Positions 2,558 through 32,740 of a stretch of 36,209 nucleotides of DNA are shown here, in pieces. The stretch's first letter is position 1; every line of letters starts with the position of its first letter. Source of the DNA: Cyclobacteriaceae bacterium. GTDB taxonomy: Bacteria; Bacteroidota; Bacteroidia; Cytophagales; Cyclobacteriaceae. The notes beneath the pieces are model-generated. The model saw only the letters and a list, made by a program, of their open reading frames with translations. It ran no database searches and was not told the DNA's origin. The position numbers and the translations under genes were made by a program. Location of the stretch: assembly GCA_026989535.1 (NCBI GenBank), contig JALSJD010000251.1, positions 1-36,209 of the forward strand. The letters run 5' to 3'.

Positions 2558-3232
2558 TTAATTTAGTTTAAAATTGATAGGTAAGGTCATTTGTACTTTT
2601 ACGGGCTTACCTCGTTGTTTGCCAGGACTCCATTTTGGTAAAGTTTTAAGTACACGTATAGCTTCCTCATCACATCCTGCTCCAATGCCTCTTAAGAGTT
2701 TAATGTTGGTAATGCTGCCATCCTTGTCAATTACAAAGGAAAGTGTCACTCTGCCATCTATGCCCATTCTACGTGCTTGCGAAGGGTATTTCATCTTTTT
2801 GCTTATAAACTTATACAGTGCTTCCAAGCCACCCGGATAGGTTGGCATCTGCTCTACAATAATAAAAGGAGCTTCTTCTACCGGCTCAATACCTGGGCTT
2901 TCAATTTCACCTGGGTCTTCAAAACTATCGATTTCTTCAAAAGTATTATCAATGGGAGATTCGAATACTTCAACAACTATATCATTGGGTACTTCAACCA
3001 ATATAACCTCCTTAGGAGGTGGGGGAGGTGGTGTTTGATGTTCCGTTAATGGAACATCAAAAGACTCCTCTGTGTCGAACCCTGTATCCGGGACGACAAA
3101 CCGTTCGCAAATGCTATACGTTTTGTACTCAAATGCCAAGAGCACAAAACTTAAACTAATTACCAAGCCCAAGTTTAAGAATAAACCTGATTTTTTACGT
3201 AAATCGAGTGTCGGATTTTTCTTGTTTTCCAT
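2558..3232 (-). CDS. tonB: Energy transducer TonB (copy 1)
   Basis: TonB-family protein of 224 residues that would couple the proton motive force (via ExbB/ExbD, not in the window) to outer-membrane TonB-dependent transporters. Order: a short cytoplasmic N-terminus (MENKKNPTLDLRKKSG), a single membrane anchor at about 17-36, a proline run PPPPPP near residue 68, an acidic periplasmic linker, then the TonB C-terminal domain at about 130-224 with MPTYPGG, YPSQARRMGIDGRV and GAGCDEEAIRVLKTLPKW. It differs most from the other two copies in the linker and has an unusual cysteine just after the anchor (SICERF). It is probably the last gene of an operon with tonB-2 and the lipoprotein; a 21-bp gap separates it from the latter. 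Confidence 0.92.
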   Translation of the reverse strand: MENKKNPTLDLRKKSGLFLNLGLVISLSFVLLAFEYKTYSICERFVVPDTGFDTEESFDVPLTEHQTPPPPPPKEVILVEVPNDIVVEVFESPIDNTFEEIDSFEDPGEIESPGIEPVEEAPFIIVEQMPTYPGGLEALYKFISKKMKYPSQARRMGIDGRVTLSFVIDKDGSITNIKLLRGIGAGCDEEAIRVLKTLPKWSPGKQRGKPVKVQMTLPINFKLN

Positions 3233-3253
3233 CGTGTTTCTTGTTTTATTATA

Positions 3254-3742
3254 TTAATAATTCACATACCTGGTTTTTCCGCATTGAGCGTATTTATCAT
3301 CTCTGTTTAACTCAATCTTAATGTTTTTACTAAAGTTTTGAAGAACTGTTTCAAACTCCAATCTTTTAGCGTTCGAGATTGATGGGTTTATAATTCTAAA
3401 AAAATAATAATCGATAGAACCACTTTTGCTAAAATAAATTTTGTTAACAATGCTAATAGTTGAATCGGGTGAATCCCACGTAAAATTTTCATCTTTCATA
3501 AACTTCGATACCTGTTGATGAAATTTGCTCCACGATTCTATTACTTTTTTATGCTGTTCTTGCGTTGAGTTTCTGGAGTCTAATAGGTTTGGGTAAATAC
3601 TATCTAAATTCAGCTTTTTATACGCATCAAAGCTTGGCTGATTATCAAAGCTTATAATTGTGGGGTTTTTGTCAGTATCAGATATATTTTTAGCACAACC
3701 TATTAGTATAATAATTAGGAGAAAAATAGAAACTTGCTTCAT
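3254..3742 (-). CDS. Hypothetical lipoprotein between tonB-2 and tonB-1
   Basis: Product of 162 residues with a lipoprotein signal, MKQVSIFLLIIILIGCAKN; the lipobox is LIGC with Cys16, so it is probably anchored in the inner or outer membrane facing the periplasm. The rest is polar with no recognised domain. It ends with RDDKYAQCGKTRYVNY, a Cys-Gly-containing tail that looks like a conserved motif although I cannot name the family. Gaps of 15 bp to tonB-2 upstream and 21 bp to tonB-1 downstream indicate co-transcription. The context suggests a TonB-associated or envelope role, but this is inference only. Confidence 0.8.
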   Translation of the reverse strand: MKQVSIFLLIIILIGCAKNISDTDKNPTIISFDNQPSFDAYKKLNLDSIYPNLLDSRNSTQEQHKKVIESWSKFHQQVSKFMKDENFTWDSPDSTISIVNKIYFSKSGSIDYYFFRIINPSISNAKRLEFETVLQNFSKNIKIELNRDDKYAQCGKTRYVNY

Positions 3743-3757
3743 AGTAATTTTATTTGT

Positions 3758-4432
3758 TTAACTCAATCTAAAAGTTATTGGCAATACCATTCTTACTTTT
3801 ACGGCCTTACCACGTTGTTTACCGGGGTTCCATTTAGGCGAATTTTTAATCACGCGAATGGCTTCTTCATCGCAACCGGCACCTACGCCACGAATTACTT
3901 TTACATCGGTAATATTGCCTGCTTTATCCACCACAAACTGCACAAATACCTTTCCTTCAACGCCCATCTGCCTAGCTCGCGATGGATATTTCATTTTATT
4001 ACCTATGTACTTATAAAAAGCTTGATCGCCCCCCGGAAACGAAGGTTGCTTCTCTACAATGGTAAAAATTTCGTCAGCCACTTCTTCGTCTTCAGGCTCT
4101 TCAAAAATGGCTTCTTCAATTACAGTTTCATCCGTAATATCAATGTCAAGATCCACTTCTATATCTTCTTCAATTTCTTCTTCATCGGGTACCTCAATAA
4201 TTTCGGGCTGCTGTATTTTTGGCGGAGGAGGAGGCGGTTGCTCTATAGGAAGAATCTCTGTCATTTCCTCAAAATCGTCATTTACAGCGGCTAACTGCAT
4301 TAGTGAGCCGTCATCGTACGATTTGTACTCAAATGCGAATAATACCAACGACAGGCTAACTACTAAACCAATGTTTAAATATAAACCTGATTTTTTACGT
4401 AAATCGAGTGTAGGGTTTTTCTTGTTTTCCAT
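3758..4432 (-). CDS. tonB: Energy transducer TonB (copy 2, mosaic)
   Basis: TonB protein of 224 residues with the same plan as its neighbours: N-terminal anchor (about 17-36), PPPPPP run, acidic linker, and C-terminal TonB domain with QPSFPGGDQAFYKYI, YPSRARQMGVEGKV and GAGCDEEAIRVIKNSPKW. The first ~16 residues and the surrounding DNA nearly match tonB-1 (MENKKNPTLDLRKKSG). From FEYKSYDDGSL to the end of the acidic linker it is almost identical to tonB-3, and the DNA there is nearly invariant too. The gene is therefore a mosaic of its two flanking paralogues. It appears to head an operon with the lipoprotein and tonB-1; a terminator lies upstream, between it and tonB-3. Confidence 0.92.
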   Translation of the reverse strand: MENKKNPTLDLRKKSGLYLNIGLVVSLSLVLFAFEYKSYDDGSLMQLAAVNDDFEEMTEILPIEQPPPPPPKIQQPEIIEVPDEEEIEEDIEVDLDIDITDETVIEEAIFEEPEDEEVADEIFTIVEKQPSFPGGDQAFYKYIGNKMKYPSRARQMGVEGKVFVQFVVDKAGNITDVKVIRGVGAGCDEEAIRVIKNSPKWNPGKQRGKAVKVRMVLPITFRLS

Positions 4433-4491
4433 AGTATAACTATTTATTTAATTATAAAACTAAAGTAATAGTTATAGAAAACAAAATAAAA

Positions 4492-4510
4492 CCCCGATTT
4501 ATTTTCGGGG
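4492..4510 (-). terminator. Rho-independent terminator after tonB-3
   Basis: CCCCGA (4492-4497) and TCGGGG (4505-4510) form a GC-rich 6-bp stem with a 7-nt loop. On the minus strand the hairpin is followed by TTTTATTTTG. It lies 14 bp beyond the tonB-3 stop and separates the gcvH-vanZ-tonB-3 unit from the tonB-2 unit. Confidence 0.8.
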
Positions 4511-4524
4511 CTTTAAAATACTTT

Positions 4525-5199
4525 TTAGCTAAGCTTAAAGGTAATTGGTAGTACCATTCGTACTTTAACTGCCTTACCGCGTTGCTTACCGGGAGTCCAT
4601 TTTGGCGAGCTCTTAATTACTCTAGCTGCTTCTTCATCACAACCGGCACCAACACCACGTATAACTTTTACATCGGTAATATTACCTGCTTTATCCACCA
4701 CAAACTGCACAAATACCTTTCCTTCAATGCCCATTCTGCGTGCTTGCGAAGGATACTTCATTTTCTTTTGTACATACTTATAAAAAGCACCCATACCCCC
4801 TGGATAGCCAGGTTGTTTCTCCACAATGGTAAAAATTTCATCGGCCACTTCTTCGTCTTCAGGCTCCTCAAAAATGGCTTCTTCAATTACAGTTTCATCC
4901 GTAATATCAATGTCAAGATCCACTTCTATATCTTCTTCAATTTCTTCTTCATCAGGCACCTCAATAATTTCGGGCTGTTGAATTTTTGGAGGAGGAGGAG
5001 GCGGTTGCTCGGTAGGAGGAATCTCTGTCATTTCCTCAAAATCGTCATTTACAGCGCCTAGCTCCATTAGTGAACCATCATCGTACGATTTGTACTCAAA
5101 TGCAAAAAGCACTAACGCAAGGCTAATAACCAAACCAATATTTAGAAATAGCCCCGACTTTTTAGTCAAATCTGCTTCTGGTGATTTTTTAGCTTCCAT
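4525..5199 (-). CDS. tonB: Energy transducer TonB (copy 3)
   Basis: Third TonB paralogue, 224 residues. It has a cytoplasmic start MEAKKSPEADLTKKSG, a membrane anchor at about 17-36, a PPPPPP run near residue 67, then a strongly acidic linker of about 45 residues rich in Glu and Asp (for example PDEEEIEEDIEVDLDIDI), and a C-terminal TonB domain with QPGYPGGMGAFYKYV and GAGCDEEAARVIKSSPKW. TonB linkers are classically Pro/Lys-rich, so this acidic linker is notable, though acidic variants do occur in Bacteroidota. It follows the vanZ-like gene, has its own -7 element and ends at a strong terminator. Confidence 0.92.
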   Translation of the reverse strand: MEAKKSPEADLTKKSGLFLNIGLVISLALVLFAFEYKSYDDGSLMELGAVNDDFEEMTEIPPTEQPPPPPPKIQQPEIIEVPDEEEIEEDIEVDLDIDITDETVIEEAIFEEPEDEEVADEIFTIVEKQPGYPGGMGAFYKYVQKKMKYPSQARRMGIEGKVFVQFVVDKAGNITDVKVIRGVGAGCDEEAARVIKSSPKWTPGKQRGKAVKVRMVLPITFKLS

Positions 5200-26001: not shown

Positions 26002-28221
26002 TTAATGCGAATCTTTAAATTCCTCTAATTTAGACTTGGCTTCTCGCTTAGGAAAGTAATTATTATTCATTTCTGTATCGCCCGTTTCTTTGTTGGGGTC
26101 GATGGTGATGTTGATTACTTCCTTGCTTTTTACAAACACTTTTTTAGCTTCATTTTCGTTGGAGCGCCAAATTTCTGCAGGTAATTGTTGCACTTCTTTG
26201 GTGCCATCGGCATAAGTCCACTCTATAATAATGGGAGAAACTAAGCCACCTACATTTTTAAACGATAACTCATAAAAATTCTTTCCGTTATAGGTGTTTT
26301 TTATGGCTTCATCGTCCACTCTGGCCATAAACTCACTATAATAACGATCGGGTGTATTGGTAATTACTAATAGATCTGCCCCATTAGAAAAGTCTATATT
26401 ATTGCCGTTCTCATCCTTATTGGTATTCTTTATTTTAGCCGTTTCGTTTTGGCCTTCAATGCTTTTAGAAACTGTATTGGTTGTAAACCAACGCACATTG
26501 GCAAGTTCAATATCCACATAATCAATCGAGTAAAACCAGCCTCTCCAAAACCAATCTAAATCCACCGCAGAGGCATCTTCCATTGTTCTAAAAAAATCGG
26601 CAGGCATTGGGTGTTTAAAAGCCCAACGCTGTGCATACTCTTTAAAAGCAATATCAAATAATTCTGGACCCATAATAGTTTCACGAAGTAAAACAAGGGC
26701 TGCAGAAGGTTTACCATAGGCATTATAACCAAACTGTCTAATCTGCTCCGAGTTCGTCATTATAGGACGGATATAATCGGGGTTGCTCTTCATATAGTGC
26801 GTAATTCCTTTGGGGGTACCCCACGTTAAATCAAAAGTAGGGTAGTATTTAACCAATGTATTATGCTCTAAAAAAGTATTAAGCCCTTCATCCATCCAAG
26901 TCCATTGGCGTTCATCCGAATTGATAATCATTGGAAAATAATTATGCCCTACTTCGTGCACCACAACACCTACCAAGCCTTCAAGTAACTGCTGTGAGTA
27001 TTTGCCCTTTTCATCAGGGCGGCCATAATTAAAGCAAATCATTGGGTACTCCATTCCTTGGTCGGCAGCATGTACTGAAATGGCTACCGGATACGGATAA
27101 TCAATTGTTTTTTCGGAGTAATAACGAAGTGTATTTGCTACTGCCTCTGTAGAGTAATCTGCCCATAATGGATTGCCTTCTTTAGGGTAGAACGACATAG
27201 CTAATGGTTTATGGTTTTCCAATTGAACCGCTACGGCATCCCAAATATATTTACGCGAAGTAGTAAAGGCGAAATCTCTCACATTCTCCGCCTTAAAATG
27301 CCAAGTTTTAGTGCTTGTTTCTTTTGATTTTTCGTTTTTTTTCGCTTCTTTTTCCGTTACTATAAACACAATCTCTTCTGAGTTTTGTGCTTGGCTCCAA
27401 CGTTCTAATTGTTTAACAGTAAGCACTTCTTTTTCGTTTTGCAACCAACCAGTTGAGCCTACAATATGGTCAGAGGGCACGGTAATATTTACTTCAAAAT
27501 CGCCAAAGGTAAGGGCAAACTCTCCTCTACCTAAAAATTGCTTATGCTGCCACCCGTTTACATCATCATAAACAGCCATACGTGGATACCACTGCGCTAA
27601 GGTAAAGGCGTAGTTATCATCTTTAGGAAAATACTCATACCCTCCACGACCATCAATAAGCATACGATCGTACAAATTATACCACCAATCAATGGCGAAC
27701 GAGTAAGACTCGCCCGTAGCCAATGCTGTTGGCATATCAATCCGCATCATTGTTTCTACGATGGTATGCTTTAACTCATTGCCGTTGCCATCTTTAACGG
27801 CCATTATTTTAAAGCCACCATCGTAGCTATTGTAATCATCGGCATAGTGCGTTATAGATTTGGCAGCAATAGAGTCGCGCATCCTACGTGTACCTACTTG
27901 CGTGCTCAATGCATTTTTCTGACGTACATTTTGATCCAATTGTACCCATAAATAATTTAGGGCATTGGGTGAGTTATTGGTGTAGGTAATCTGCTCCGAC
28001 CCTGTTAATTTCAAGGAATTTTCATCGATGGCTACATCAATTTTATAATCTGCTTTTTGTTGCCAGTATTTTATACCCGGTGCTCCCGCTGCATTTCGGT
28101 ATTCGTTAGGAGTAGGTAATTGTGTTCCTAACTGCTCGAACTTGCCTTGCCAGTTTAATTTTTCTTGTGCAGTTGCCATAAAAGGCAGTGCTAGTATGCA
28201 GGCGATTAATAATTTTTTCAT
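26002..28221 (-). CDS. M1-family metallopeptidase (paralogue A)
   Basis: With ATG 28221 as start the product has 739 residues and a clean signal peptide, MKKLLIACILALPFMATAQ; an in-frame ATG at 28284 would add 21 non-signal residues. The gluzincin site is HEVGH at about 422-426, followed 18 residues later by the Glu ligand in WTWMDEGLN. An upstream GMEYPMICF block matches the substrate-binding GxMEN region of M1 enzymes, with Tyr for the Asn-side residue. It would be an exported aminopeptidase-like enzyme. It is roughly two-thirds identical to the next gene, so they arose by tandem duplication. Last gene of the operon with HupE and paralogue B. Confidence 0.93.
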   Translation of the reverse strand: MKKLLIACILALPFMATAQEKLNWQGKFEQLGTQLPTPNEYRNAAGAPGIKYWQQKADYKIDVAIDENSLKLTGSEQITYTNNSPNALNYLWVQLDQNVRQKNALSTQVGTRRMRDSIAAKSITHYADDYNSYDGGFKIMAVKDGNGNELKHTIVETMMRIDMPTALATGESYSFAIDWWYNLYDRMLIDGRGGYEYFPKDDNYAFTLAQWYPRMAVYDDVNGWQHKQFLGRGEFALTFGDFEVNITVPSDHIVGSTGWLQNEKEVLTVKQLERWSQAQNSEEIVFIVTEKEAKKNEKSKETSTKTWHFKAENVRDFAFTTSRKYIWDAVAVQLENHKPLAMSFYPKEGNPLWADYSTEAVANTLRYYSEKTIDYPYPVAISVHAADQGMEYPMICFNYGRPDEKGKYSQQLLEGLVGVVVHEVGHNYFPMIINSDERQWTWMDEGLNTFLEHNTLVKYYPTFDLTWGTPKGITHYMKSNPDYIRPIMTNSEQIRQFGYNAYGKPSAALVLLRETIMGPELFDIAFKEYAQRWAFKHPMPADFFRTMEDASAVDLDWFWRGWFYSIDYVDIELANVRWFTTNTVSKSIEGQNETAKIKNTNKDENGNNIDFSNGADLLVITNTPDRYYSEFMARVDDEAIKNTYNGKNFYELSFKNVGGLVSPIIIEWTYADGTKEVQQLPAEIWRSNENEAKKVFVKSKEVINITIDPNKETGDTEMNNNYFPKREAKSKLEEFKDSH

Positions 28222-28292
28222 ATTGATTACCTTTTTCATCAATGCTAGGCATAGCCTGCTTCGTTTTTGGGCAAGGAGTCGCATTAACGTTA

Positions 28293-30518
28293 TTAATTGT
28301 CCTTAAACTCTTCTAACCTAGATTTCGACTCTTTTTTAGGGAATACATTATTATCCGTATTTACATCCGCTGTTTTTAACTCAGGGTCGATAACGATGCT
28401 TTCCACTTCTTTATCTTTGGCAAATACCTTTTTAACTTGGCTTTCATTCGACCTCCAAATTTCAGCAGGAATCATTTCAATTTCTTTGGTGCCATCGGTA
28501 TAATTCCACTCAATAATTACAGGCATAACAAGCCCTCCATTATTTTTTAAGGTTAATTCATAAAAATTTTTATTTGCATTTTTCTTACGAATAGCCTCAT
28601 CATCTACGGTGTTCATATACTCCCCATAATAATGATCAGGCGTATCTGTAATTACTAAGTTTTCTGGCCCGTTAGAAAAGTCTTTGTTATTACCGTCCTC
28701 GTCTTTATTCGTATTTTCTATTTTACCAGATTGGTTCTGGCCTTCAATGCCTTGCGAAACCGTATCAACTTTAAACCAGCGCACATTGCTTAATTCAATT
28801 TCCACATTATCGATGGTGTAAAACCACCCTTTCCAAAACCAATCTAAATCAATAGCAGAGGCATCTTCCATCGTTCTAAAAAAATCGGCCGGTTCTGGGT
28901 GTTTAAAAGCCCAACGCGTGGCGTATTCTTTAAAGGCATAATCAAATTCTTCTTCCCCCATAATCGTTTCCCTTAAAATGGTTAAAGCGGTTGCGGGTTT
29001 GCCATACGCATTATTCCCAAACTGGATAATTTGCTCCGAATTAGTCATAATTGGGCGAATATAATCAGGGTCGCCCTTCATATAATTAACAATGGTATTG
29101 GGCTCGCCTCTACGCTTAGGCATATCTGGGTAGTTCTCTTTTTGGGTAACGGTTTGCACAAACGTGTTTAACCCTTCGTCCATCCAAGTCCATTGGCGTT
29201 CATCCGAGTTAATAATCATAGGAAAGAAATTATGCCCCACTTCGTGTACTATCACGCCAATCATGCCCCATTTCTTTCTGTCTGAATAAGTGCCATCTTC
29301 TTCTGGTCGCCCAAAGTTGAAGCAAATCATTGGGTACTCCATACCAATACTTGCAGCATGCACAGAAATGGCTACAGGATAGGGGTAATCGATGGTCATT
29401 CGAGAGTAGGTTCTGAGCGTATGCGCTACTGCTTTAGTAGATTCTTTTTCCCATAATGGATTACCTTCTTTGGGGTAATATGACATTGCCAAAGGCTTTT
29501 TGCCATTAATATCTACCATTTGTGCATCCCAAATAAACTTACGTGAGCTTGCAAAAGCAAAATCTCTTACATTCTCGGCTTTAAAATGCCACGTGCGTTT
29601 TTGAGTAGATTTGGCTTTTTCTTTTTTGATGGCCTCGTCTTGGGTTACAATTATCACAATATCTTCTGAGCTTTTCGCTTGCTCAAAACGCTCTTGTTCC
29701 AAATCTGTGAGTACTTCTTTAGGGTTTTGAAGCGAGCCCGTTGAAGCCACAATATGATCGGCAGGCACGGTGATTTCTACATCGTAGTTGCCAAACACCA
29801 AGGCAAATTCACCTCTTCCTAAAAATTGCTTGTTTTGCCATCCTTCTACATCGCTGTAAACTGCCATTCGAGGAAACCACTGTGCAATCGTAAACAGGTA
29901 GTTATCATCTTTAGGAAAATACTCGTAGCCACCTCGGCCACCCATTGCCATACGGTCGTTAATATTATACCACCAATCAATCGAAAATGATACGTTTGCG
30001 CCCGGTTTAAGAGGTTCGGGTAAATTGATGCGCATCATGGTATGATTAACCACATAGCTTAAATCGTTGCCTTTGGCATCTTTTACAGCAGTTAGTTTAA
30101 ACCCGCCATCGTAATCAACATCGTACAACACATATTGTTGCAATATTTTACCCGAAATAGAATCTGATCTTAAGGAAGAGGATGCTACTTGAGGTGTTTG
30201 TGAGGTTTTGGCTCGCATATTTTGGTCGAGCTGTACCCATAAATAGGTTAAATCATCTGGGCTATTATTAAAATAAGTTATGGTTTCAGACCCTGCTATG
30301 GTTTGCTTATCTTCATTAAGCGTTACTTTAATTTTATAGTCAGCTTTTTGCTGCCAATAGGCTTCGCCCGGAGCACCAGAGGCTGTACGATAAGTGTTTG
30401 GTGTTGGCAGTATAGTGCCTAGCTGCTCGAATTTGCCTTGCCAACCAGACTTTTCTTGGGCATTAGCCCAAACAGCCGCTAACAATAGTGTAATTAATAG
30501 GATTATGCGGTTCATCAT
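28293..30518 (-). CDS. M1-family metallopeptidase (paralogue B)
   Basis: Product of 741 residues with a signal peptide (MMNRIILLITLLLAAVWANA). The zinc site HEVGH lies at about 425-429, with Glu448 in WTWMDEGLN, and GMEYPMICF lies upstream. The N-terminal beta domain begins WQGKFEQLGTILPTPNTYR, and the C-terminus ends SRLEEFKDN, both close to paralogue A. Both copies keep all metal and catalytic residues, so both are likely active, perhaps with different specificity. It starts 15 bp after the HupE/UreJ gene and is co-transcribed with it. Confidence 0.93.
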   Translation of the reverse strand: MMNRIILLITLLLAAVWANAQEKSGWQGKFEQLGTILPTPNTYRTASGAPGEAYWQQKADYKIKVTLNEDKQTIAGSETITYFNNSPDDLTYLWVQLDQNMRAKTSQTPQVASSSLRSDSISGKILQQYVLYDVDYDGGFKLTAVKDAKGNDLSYVVNHTMMRINLPEPLKPGANVSFSIDWWYNINDRMAMGGRGGYEYFPKDDNYLFTIAQWFPRMAVYSDVEGWQNKQFLGRGEFALVFGNYDVEITVPADHIVASTGSLQNPKEVLTDLEQERFEQAKSSEDIVIIVTQDEAIKKEKAKSTQKRTWHFKAENVRDFAFASSRKFIWDAQMVDINGKKPLAMSYYPKEGNPLWEKESTKAVAHTLRTYSRMTIDYPYPVAISVHAASIGMEYPMICFNFGRPEEDGTYSDRKKWGMIGVIVHEVGHNFFPMIINSDERQWTWMDEGLNTFVQTVTQKENYPDMPKRRGEPNTIVNYMKGDPDYIRPIMTNSEQIIQFGNNAYGKPATALTILRETIMGEEEFDYAFKEYATRWAFKHPEPADFFRTMEDASAIDLDWFWKGWFYTIDNVEIELSNVRWFKVDTVSQGIEGQNQSGKIENTNKDEDGNNKDFSNGPENLVITDTPDHYYGEYMNTVDDEAIRKKNANKNFYELTLKNNGGLVMPVIIEWNYTDGTKEIEMIPAEIWRSNESQVKKVFAKDKEVESIVIDPELKTADVNTDNNVFPKKESKSRLEEFKDN

Positions 30519-31721: not shown

Positions 31722-32486
31722 TTAAAATGTAGAAAGCGATAGGCCAAACGAGAAAGTAGTTGGATTTCTTATGCCTGCTGTTTTATTGCCATCAAAAAAG
31801 TTATTGAGACCCATATAACCCCAAAAGTTAATGGGGCCGTACCCTATTCTGGCCGTAGCACCATACCTAATGGCATTTATATTAAAATTGTACAAATCTT
31901 TAAATTTCTTCTTACTTCCTAATTCTGAATAAACCACTTTTGTTTTTCCGGCAAATCGAAAACCTACTTTTCCTCCAATAGCAAGGTAAAATGCTCTTTT
32001 ATGGTCGTTTTTTCGCGAATGAATCCTAAACTCTAAAGGGATATCAAGGTAATTAATAACCATTTGAGATTTTTTAAGGGCACTAATATTACTAAAATAA
32101 GGTATGTTTTTAATTGAATCAATAATAGTTATTTGCAGCGAATCGGTAAAAGTAACAGGGGCTTCAAATGTATATTTTTCATTGCCTACCCCCGCACCAA
32201 TATTAACCGAAAACCGGGAGTCTCCCAACCTTATATCATACATATAATACAAATTTAAAGTTGGTGAACCCCAAGGTTTGGTGTCCATAACAGGGCTGTT
32301 TTTATCAAAATAGTTGATGCCGTACTCTAACACCAATGCTCCGGGAAAATCGGGGCTAGGGGTATAGCGGTAAGCAGTTGATTCTTTCGCGTCTTTTGCA
32401 GGTTCAGCATTTTCTTGGGCAAAAACAGAGCTGCCCAAACCCGTTAAAATAACTACAAAAAGTATGTATTTCATATATTTATTCAC
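31722..32486 (-). CDS. Outer-membrane beta-barrel protein
   Basis: Product of 254 residues with a signal peptide, MKYILFVVILTGLGSSVFAQ, preceded by MNKY; ATG 32474 is an alternative start with a tighter signal. The mature part shows alternating hydrophobic strands: LVLEYGINYF, TLNLYYMYDIRLG, FSVNIGAGVGNEKYTF, YLDIPLEFRIHSR, FYLAIGGKVGFRFAG, and a terminal TFSFGLSLSTF ending in Phe, typical of barrels inserted by BamA. This resembles the PorT/OmpW-like small barrel group, but no specific family is assigned. It has a -7 element (TATATTTG) upstream and converges with the DUF6702 gene. Confidence 0.8.
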   Translation of the reverse strand: MNKYMKYILFVVILTGLGSSVFAQENAEPAKDAKESTAYRYTPSPDFPGALVLEYGINYFDKNSPVMDTKPWGSPTLNLYYMYDIRLGDSRFSVNIGAGVGNEKYTFEAPVTFTDSLQITIIDSIKNIPYFSNISALKKSQMVINYLDIPLEFRIHSRKNDHKRAFYLAIGGKVGFRFAGKTKVVYSELGSKKKFKDLYNFNINAIRYGATARIGYGPINFWGYMGLNNFFDGNKTAGIRNPTTFSFGLSLSTF

Positions 32487-32579: not shown

Positions 32580-32587
32580 TACATTTG
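32580..32587 (+). promoter_or_regulatory. -7 element for tRNA-Arg
   Basis: TACATTTG is an exact TAnnTTTG match 41 bp before the tRNA. A small hairpin TCCGTT/AACGGA lies just downstream in the leader. Confidence 0.5.
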
Positions 32588-32628: not shown

Positions 32629-32702
32629 GGCCTCGTAGCACAACTGAATAATGCACTTGATTACGGCTCAAGAGATTACAGGTTTGAATCCTGTCGAGGT
32701 CA
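32629..32702 (+). tRNA. tRNA-Arg (anticodon ACG)
   Basis: Full cloverleaf of 74 nt. Acceptor GGCCTCG (32629-32635) pairs with CGAGGTC (32695-32701), with discriminator A. The D arm is GCAC/ATGC with one imperfect pair. The anticodon stem CTTGA/TCAAG encloses loop TTACGGC, anticodon ACG, which would be edited to ICG to read CGN codons. The T arm is ACAGG/CCTGT with loop TTTGAAT. CCA is not encoded. The D loop has GA instead of the usual G18-G19, and the T loop has T instead of C56, which keeps a 19-56 pair. A strong terminator follows. Confidence 0.95.
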
Positions 32703-32712
32703 CTAGAAGCGT

Positions 32713-32740
32713 AAAACCCGATAGAAATATCGGGTTTTTT
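32713..32740 (+). terminator. Rho-independent terminator after tRNA-Arg
   Basis: AAAACCCGATA (32713-32723) and TATCGGGTTTT (32728-32738) form an 11-bp stem capped by a GAAA tetraloop, followed by T residues. It lies 11 nt beyond the tRNA. Confidence 0.9.

Follow-up and report, generated by a model that had tools for sequence, protein, structure and literature searches.

A tRNA-Arg(ACG) gene from a Cyclobacteriaceae bacterium raises the question of whether a natural bacterial tRNA can close its elbow with A19-U56 in place of G19-C56, a pair described as ‘found in all canonical tRNAs’ in the available text of PMC10412605. According to the accessible part of PMC4810234, the bases at 19 and 56 are joined in Watson-Crick fashion and offer a flat face to which the ribosome, proteins and RNAs bind, and the elbow partners named there include ribosomal protein L5 and RNase P. 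The gene lies on contig JALSJD010000251.1 (assembly GCA_026989535.1), of which we analysed a stretch of 36,209 nucleotides, called the window below.

The tRNA-Arg(ACG) gene and its numbering

ARAGORN and Rfam RF00005 agreed on a tRNA-Arg(ACG) at window positions 32629–32702. The Rfam match to this interval scored 54.9 bits against a gathering score of 29, so that the cloverleaf stood above the family cut-off. The features within the gene were as follows.

32629–32702, + strand: tRNA-Arg(ACG) gene, 74 nt, CCA not encoded (ARAGORN; Rfam RF00005)
32641, + strand: C13, opposite A22 (32651) as a C.A mismatch, with A46 at 32675 (sequence; relatives)
32643, + strand: A15, in a Levitt pair with U48 (32677) as A-U (sequence; relatives)
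32647, + strand: A19, where the canonical elbow has G (sequence; covariance-model register)
32663–32665, + strand: anticodon ACG (ARAGORN)
32685, + strand: U56, where the canonical elbow has C, the putative Watson-Crick partner of A19 (sequence; register; covariation)

Numbered by hand, the acceptor strand (1–7) was followed by U8 and A9, the D-stem strand G10 C11 A12 C13, the D loop A14 A15 C16 U17 G18 A19 A20 U20a A21, and then A22 U23 G24 C25. The variable loop had 5 nt (A44–U48), and the T loop read T54 T55 T56 G57 A58 A59 T60. The Rfam covariance model gave the same register, setting the second conserved D-loop G opposite an A and the C of the conserved T-loop UUC opposite a U. This confirmed an earlier sequence-only reading, which had placed A at 19 and U at 56, and the numbering also held in an alignment of relatives. 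The elbow pair G19-C56 was thus replaced by A19-U56, with the Watson-Crick pairing kept and the identity changed, in a tRNA that still passed the RF00005 cut-off.

It is scarcely credible that the swap is an artefact of numbering or the mark of a degenerate tRNA gene. The C13.A22 mismatch, together with an Rfam score below those of 28 of the 32 tRNA places in the genome, would suit a degenerate gene. However, the D-loop and T-loop lengths equalled those of aligned G-C relatives and the covariance model agreed with our register, which ruled out an artefact of numbering; the conserved stems and the finding of only this ACG gene ruled out a pseudogene.

The copy number was established in a draft genome of 3.82 Mb (99% complete, 252 contigs). 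Scoring 150 of 281 RF00005 candidates gave at least 32 tRNA places, and ARAGORN, run on the fetched tRNA loci, identified the window gene as the sole ACG gene found, the other arginine tRNAs being TCT, CCT and TCG. An ACG-specific pattern run over the whole genome matched once. The possibility of a second ACG gene, raised in the sequence-only reading, was therefore not borne out by either search. In bacteria the determinants for arginine are A20, C35, U/G36 and A/G73, with A20 a main one, according to the portion of PMC9976931 available. The window tRNA had A20, C35, G36 and A73, and A20, which adjoins A19, was kept. Because no other ACG gene was found, this tRNA is presumably a substrate of ArgRS and serves in translation. 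The genome also encoded a TadA-like protein (L168), whose best NCBIfam match was TadA at 130 bits, below the cut-off of 150; given this deaminase, conversion of ACG to ICG by an enzyme of the TadA type would be expected, and the tRNA would then read CGU, CGC and CGA.

Two candidate expression signals flanked the gene.

32580–32587, + strand: TACATTTG, fitting the Bacteroidota promoter −7 motif TAnnTTTG (sequence)
32713–32738, + strand: intrinsic-terminator-like hairpin and T run (pattern search)

We take TAnnTTTG to be the −7 consensus of Bacteroidota promoters. The terminator pattern was found once, compared with 0.3 in shuffles, and sigma-70-type promoter matches numbered 4, compared with 1.6 (sd 1.3) in shuffles, which was not convincing. 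The gene had been called an otherwise normal tRNA with promoter and terminator. The terminator was supported by pattern, and for the promoter the −7 motif was the single support; the normality of the tRNA has two exceptions, the C13.A22 mismatch with its A46 and the missing CCA.

Covariation of positions 19 and 56 among relatives

We transcribed the tRNA-Arg(ACG) gene sequences of 80 genomes, one per genome and with the window’s own included; these were not a random draw, having been picked to include both elbow states. A19-U56 was present in 43 and G19-C56 in 37, and no mixed pair occurred. One gene needed care in this count: in G037 a one-base displacement of the D loop (AACGGATTA) makes fixed columns misread the gene as A19 with C56, and since G18-G19 is present we counted it as G-C. 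Direct pattern searches for the half-changed forms of tRNA-Arg(ACG) found A19 with C56 in 0 of 385 class genomes and G19 with U56 likewise in 0 of 385. These searches would miss some genes, because a generic pattern blind to positions 19 and 56 matched in 372 of the 390 order-level genomes and in 187 of the 198 from the phylum; among the 59 relatives, own genome included, it matched in 57.

When 27 full-length genes, 26 of them distinct, were aligned without gaps, the result was the same, with A-U in 16, G-C in 10 and no other combination at 19-56, which is column pair 19-57 of that alignment; the structure was paired in 99.3% of cells. This alignment excluded the gene of G037 (L040), the duplicate genes in L039 and L045, the additional ACG gene of G025 (L065), L166, and six loci whose tRNA is identical to that of the window (L031–L034, L061 and L062). 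Among the 59 relatives, 54 genes were transcribed (30 A-U, 24 G-C); the remaining five comprised G004 and G047, which had no match, and G039, G043 and G052, which were G-C by reading. The A-U form occurred in 57 of 188 class genomes and, by reading of the match list, over 23 family codes. Outside the class, all the matches listed in the phylum pattern search were G-C, again by reading.

The identical 74-mer was found in four titled contigs. In one of them, the Cyclobacteriaceae contig L031, it has the same flanks as in G002, a genome of the window’s genus; L031 matches the window both in its tRNA, which is identical, and in its flanking genes, with 78% identity over 1030 bases. Because the identical 74-mer recurs in four contigs, the pair covaries and half-changed forms were not found, A19-U56 is not a chance occurrence. 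We concluded that the swap at 19-56 is true covariation, as the sequence-only reading had proposed; a one-sided change, which would have told against it, was seen in none of the 80 genes.

Other tertiary positions also varied in a paired manner. Positions 22 and 46 were G,G in 74 of the 80 genomes and A,A in 6, a second covariation, and relatives had C-G, U.G or U-A at 13-22, with base 46 being G or A to match. The C13.A22 form itself was seen in the window, in G002 and in the same four titled contigs. The Levitt pair was A15-U48 in all 80 transcribed genes, G-C relatives included, and G15-C48 occurred together with A19-U56 in G660.

The swap is wider than the sequence-only reading knew, recurring across a large clade and touching other tRNA species. 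A search with any anticodon found A19-U56 in other tRNA genes of 3 of 59 relatives and 8 of 190 class genomes, 11 genomes in all, and ARAGORN confirmed such tRNAs for Arg(TCG), Arg(CCG), Arg(TCT), Gly(TCC), Gly(GCC), Thr(TGT) and Ala(TGC). That the swap is exclusive to Arg(ACG) is thereby ruled out. Many any-anticodon matches were chance matches outside tRNAs, and one doubtful tRNA (L165, Lys, in G656) was not counted. Because the pattern demands TAGC together with a short variable loop, it undercounts other isotypes; the contrast between Arg(ACG), A-U in 30 of the 59 relatives, and other isotypes, A-U in 3 of the same 59, is accordingly rough, the pattern being narrower for other tRNAs. Several isotypes carried A19-U56 within single genomes of families f87 and f107 (G633, G669, G699, G727 and G754), and in the first three of these Arg(ACG), Arg(CCG) and Gly(TCC) all did so. 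Perhaps the constraint on 19-56 is generally relaxed in the f87/f107 lineage.

History of the switch and competing explanations

A tree of the 80 genomes was built from 21 ribosomal proteins (3175 columns). On it the elbow state needs 18 changes, and branches whose support is 95 or more force 16 of them; when eight gappy rows were removed, the tree of 72 needed 16 changes, 11 of them forced. A gains-only model took 20 changes and a losses-only model 21. Clustering of the state on the tree of 80 was real but loose, as 500 shuffles averaged 26.7 changes.

The gene neighbourhood offered a second view of these changes. The relevant feature is as follows.

31722–32486, − strand: outer-membrane beta-barrel protein (PF13568), divergent neighbour (family match; neighbour comparison)

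Of 30 loci compared, that of the window’s genome among them, 21 have this neighbour next to the tRNA, comprising 16 of 18 A-U loci and 5 of 12 G-C loci. It was absent from 7 of 12 G-C loci versus 2 of 18 A-U loci (Fisher p = 0.013), a comparison in which G025 is represented by L065, its native-type copy being elsewhere (p = 0.028 without this other copy). Given the uneven count, many G-C genes sit elsewhere, and we claim in-place switching for only part of the changes. The PF13568 neighbour is present in each of two sister genomes of opposite state, G009 (A-U) and G031 (G-C), and G592 is G-C yet keeps the TGGCGC D arm of A-U relatives. These cases indicate that some elbow switches happened in place, and others may involve moved or replaced genes. 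Elsewhere in the window, the ORF list includes paralogues at 2558–5199 (−) and 26002–30518 (−); three proline-rich proteins of 224 aa look like TonB, and a further two, 741 and 760 aa long, look like M1 metallopeptidases.

The uneven neighbour count bears on a possible but rather improbable alternative, in which ready-made copies spread by horizontal transfer, by gene conversion or through integrating elements that replace the 3' half; fewer double substitutions would then have occurred than the tree suggests. In three contigs, titled Vicingaceae, Flavobacteriales and HGW-Bacteroidetes-12 (L032, L033 and L034), the identical tRNA, mismatch included, has immediate surroundings that differ from those of the Cyclobacteriaceae copy; L032 shares with the window only a single gene, which lies further away, and NCBI places Vicingaceae and Cyclobacteriaceae in different classes. 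Therefore transfer also happens, or the gene evolves slowly, with extreme conservation. Genome G497 holds both an A-U gene and a second ACG tRNA (L166) that is G19-C56 and has a different acceptor stem, which likewise favours transfer, as does the more frequent absence of the usual neighbour at G-C loci. Against spread of ready-made copies as the general account, the same neighbour is found with both states and the D arm of G592 is that of A-U relatives; replacement of the 3' half would, moreover, make mixed pairs, of which both 385-genome searches found none. A search for a phage or plasmid source returned 6 phage and 6 plasmid records at 75–82% identity, none nearly identical. An A+T mutational bias alone, driving G-C to A-U, is a very improbable explanation. 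The state is indeed an A-U replacement, and median GC of the ribosomal-protein region was 0.399 in A-U genomes and 0.417 in G-C genomes, but this difference was not significant (p = 0.11; independent pairs, median p = 0.58), and of the 31 distinct tRNA sequences in the window’s genome the ACG gene has U56 while the remaining 30 all have C56.

A further reading, which we regard as tentative, is that the elbow swap belongs to a set of positions that switch together (51-63, 50-64, 32-38 and 59), perhaps balancing EF-Tu affinity and decoding. The upper T-stem pairs are tuning sites for EF-Tu binding, and the 32-38 pair is a tuning site for decoding. We compared 16 phylogenetically independent contrasts at the 16 columns whose second commonest base occurred in at least 8 rows. 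The A-U state was accompanied by A51 (9.7 contrasts for, 0.2 against; median p = 0.002), U32 (8.3 versus 0.2; median p = 0.008), C50 (10.1 versus 0.7; median p = 0.012), C38 (7.3 versus 0.2; median p = 0.016) and A59 (6.8 versus 0.5; median p = 0.04). Of the remaining tested columns, ten were without signal and column 13 was borderline (0.06). A link between position 16 and the elbow state was unsupported once phylogeny was considered. After a 16-fold correction column 51 alone survived, and the links were not absolute, since 15 of 43 A-U genes have A38. The linked changes at 51, 50, 32/38 and 59 are therefore a lead, not a result. If the lead were to hold, tRNA-Arg(ACG) of this Bacteroidota class might evolve between two alternative, internally coordinated designs, crossed some 11–18 times without detectable intermediates: A19-U56 with A51, C50, A59 and U32.C38, versus G19-C56 mostly with G51, G50 and C32-A38. 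The ‘invariant’ pair would then be one element of a switchable tuning state of the whole molecule, a proposal we put forward with much reserve.

We favour the explanation that the window gene, present in a single copy, encodes a functional tRNA-Arg(ICG) in which A19-U56 takes the place of G19-C56 at the elbow, the pair being under selection; on the sequence comparisons this is probably correct. Those comparisons show that 19-56 switches as a unit, repeatedly and at least partly at the same chromosomal place, between two Watson-Crick forms. The L1 stalk is also a partner of the elbow. In the favoured explanation A19-U56 would adopt the same Watson-Crick geometry as G19-C56 and present the same flat face to such partners, so that selection would act on the pair and not on the bases. 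Half-changed intermediates, given their absence from our searches, would be unfit and would not persist, the second substitution coming soon enough in this lineage for both peaks to be populated.

Laboratory mutants described in the literature bear on this mechanism. In human mt-tRNA-Ser(UGA), serylation was lost in G19C and restored by A19:U56, according to the available text of PMC10412605. With plant PRORP3, a G19A/C56U pre-tRNA-Gly gave 1.78 per min and a KM of 7.7 nM, the unchanged substrate giving 1.67 and 4.8, and C56U alone (1.81 and 6.4) was as good as the double change, as listed in the table of PMC5039416 that was available; that step therefore shows no unfit intermediate. With PRORP1 and another pre-tRNA, C56U fell to 22% in the accessible part of PMC5039416. 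A simple account in which only the pair matters leaves unexplained both the enrichment in Arg(ACG) and the linked changes at 51, 50, 32/38 and 59.

Significance and comparison with known systems

Overall, this is most likely an ordinary, functional tRNA, notable for a tertiary pair that is unusual, recurs among relatives and is compensated by double substitution. G19-C56 is treated as near-universal, and in one isoacceptor nature has apparently run the compensatory experiment many times. The system should allow clean tests of whether G-C itself is required at the elbow or any Watson-Crick pair suffices, how far fitness drops in the intermediates, and whether other positions must change along with the pair. 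It also advises caution wherever C56 or G19 serves as a fixed anchor, as in tRNA finders, motifs of T-loop enzymes and reverse-transcription primers. No natural bacterial A19-U56 was found in searches of open-licence papers, although an older description in a subscription journal or in tRNA databases is possible; the A19 and U56 tertiary pairs that these searches did find were laboratory-made mutants, in the accessible text of PMC10412605 and PMC5039416.

Canonical bacterial tRNA-Arg(ACG), read as ICG, resembles the window tRNA in its anticodon, A20, A73, stem lengths, U54, G18, U55 and A58, and the D-loop and T-loop lengths of the window tRNA are those of its G-C relatives; the canonical molecule differs in having G19-C56, whereas that of the window has A19-U56 and C13.A22. 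The human mt-tRNA-Ser(UGA) A19:U56 mutant carries the same swap, and A19:U56 and C19:G56 both restored serylation (PMC10412605, available text); that case is engineered and mitochondrial, whereas ours arose naturally and repeatedly in bacteria. tRNA-Pyl and some mitochondrial tRNAs are, like the window tRNA, natural departures from G19-C56 in the parts of PMC7609411 and PMC10412605 available, but they lose or rebuild the elbow, whereas the window tRNA changes the identity of the pair only.
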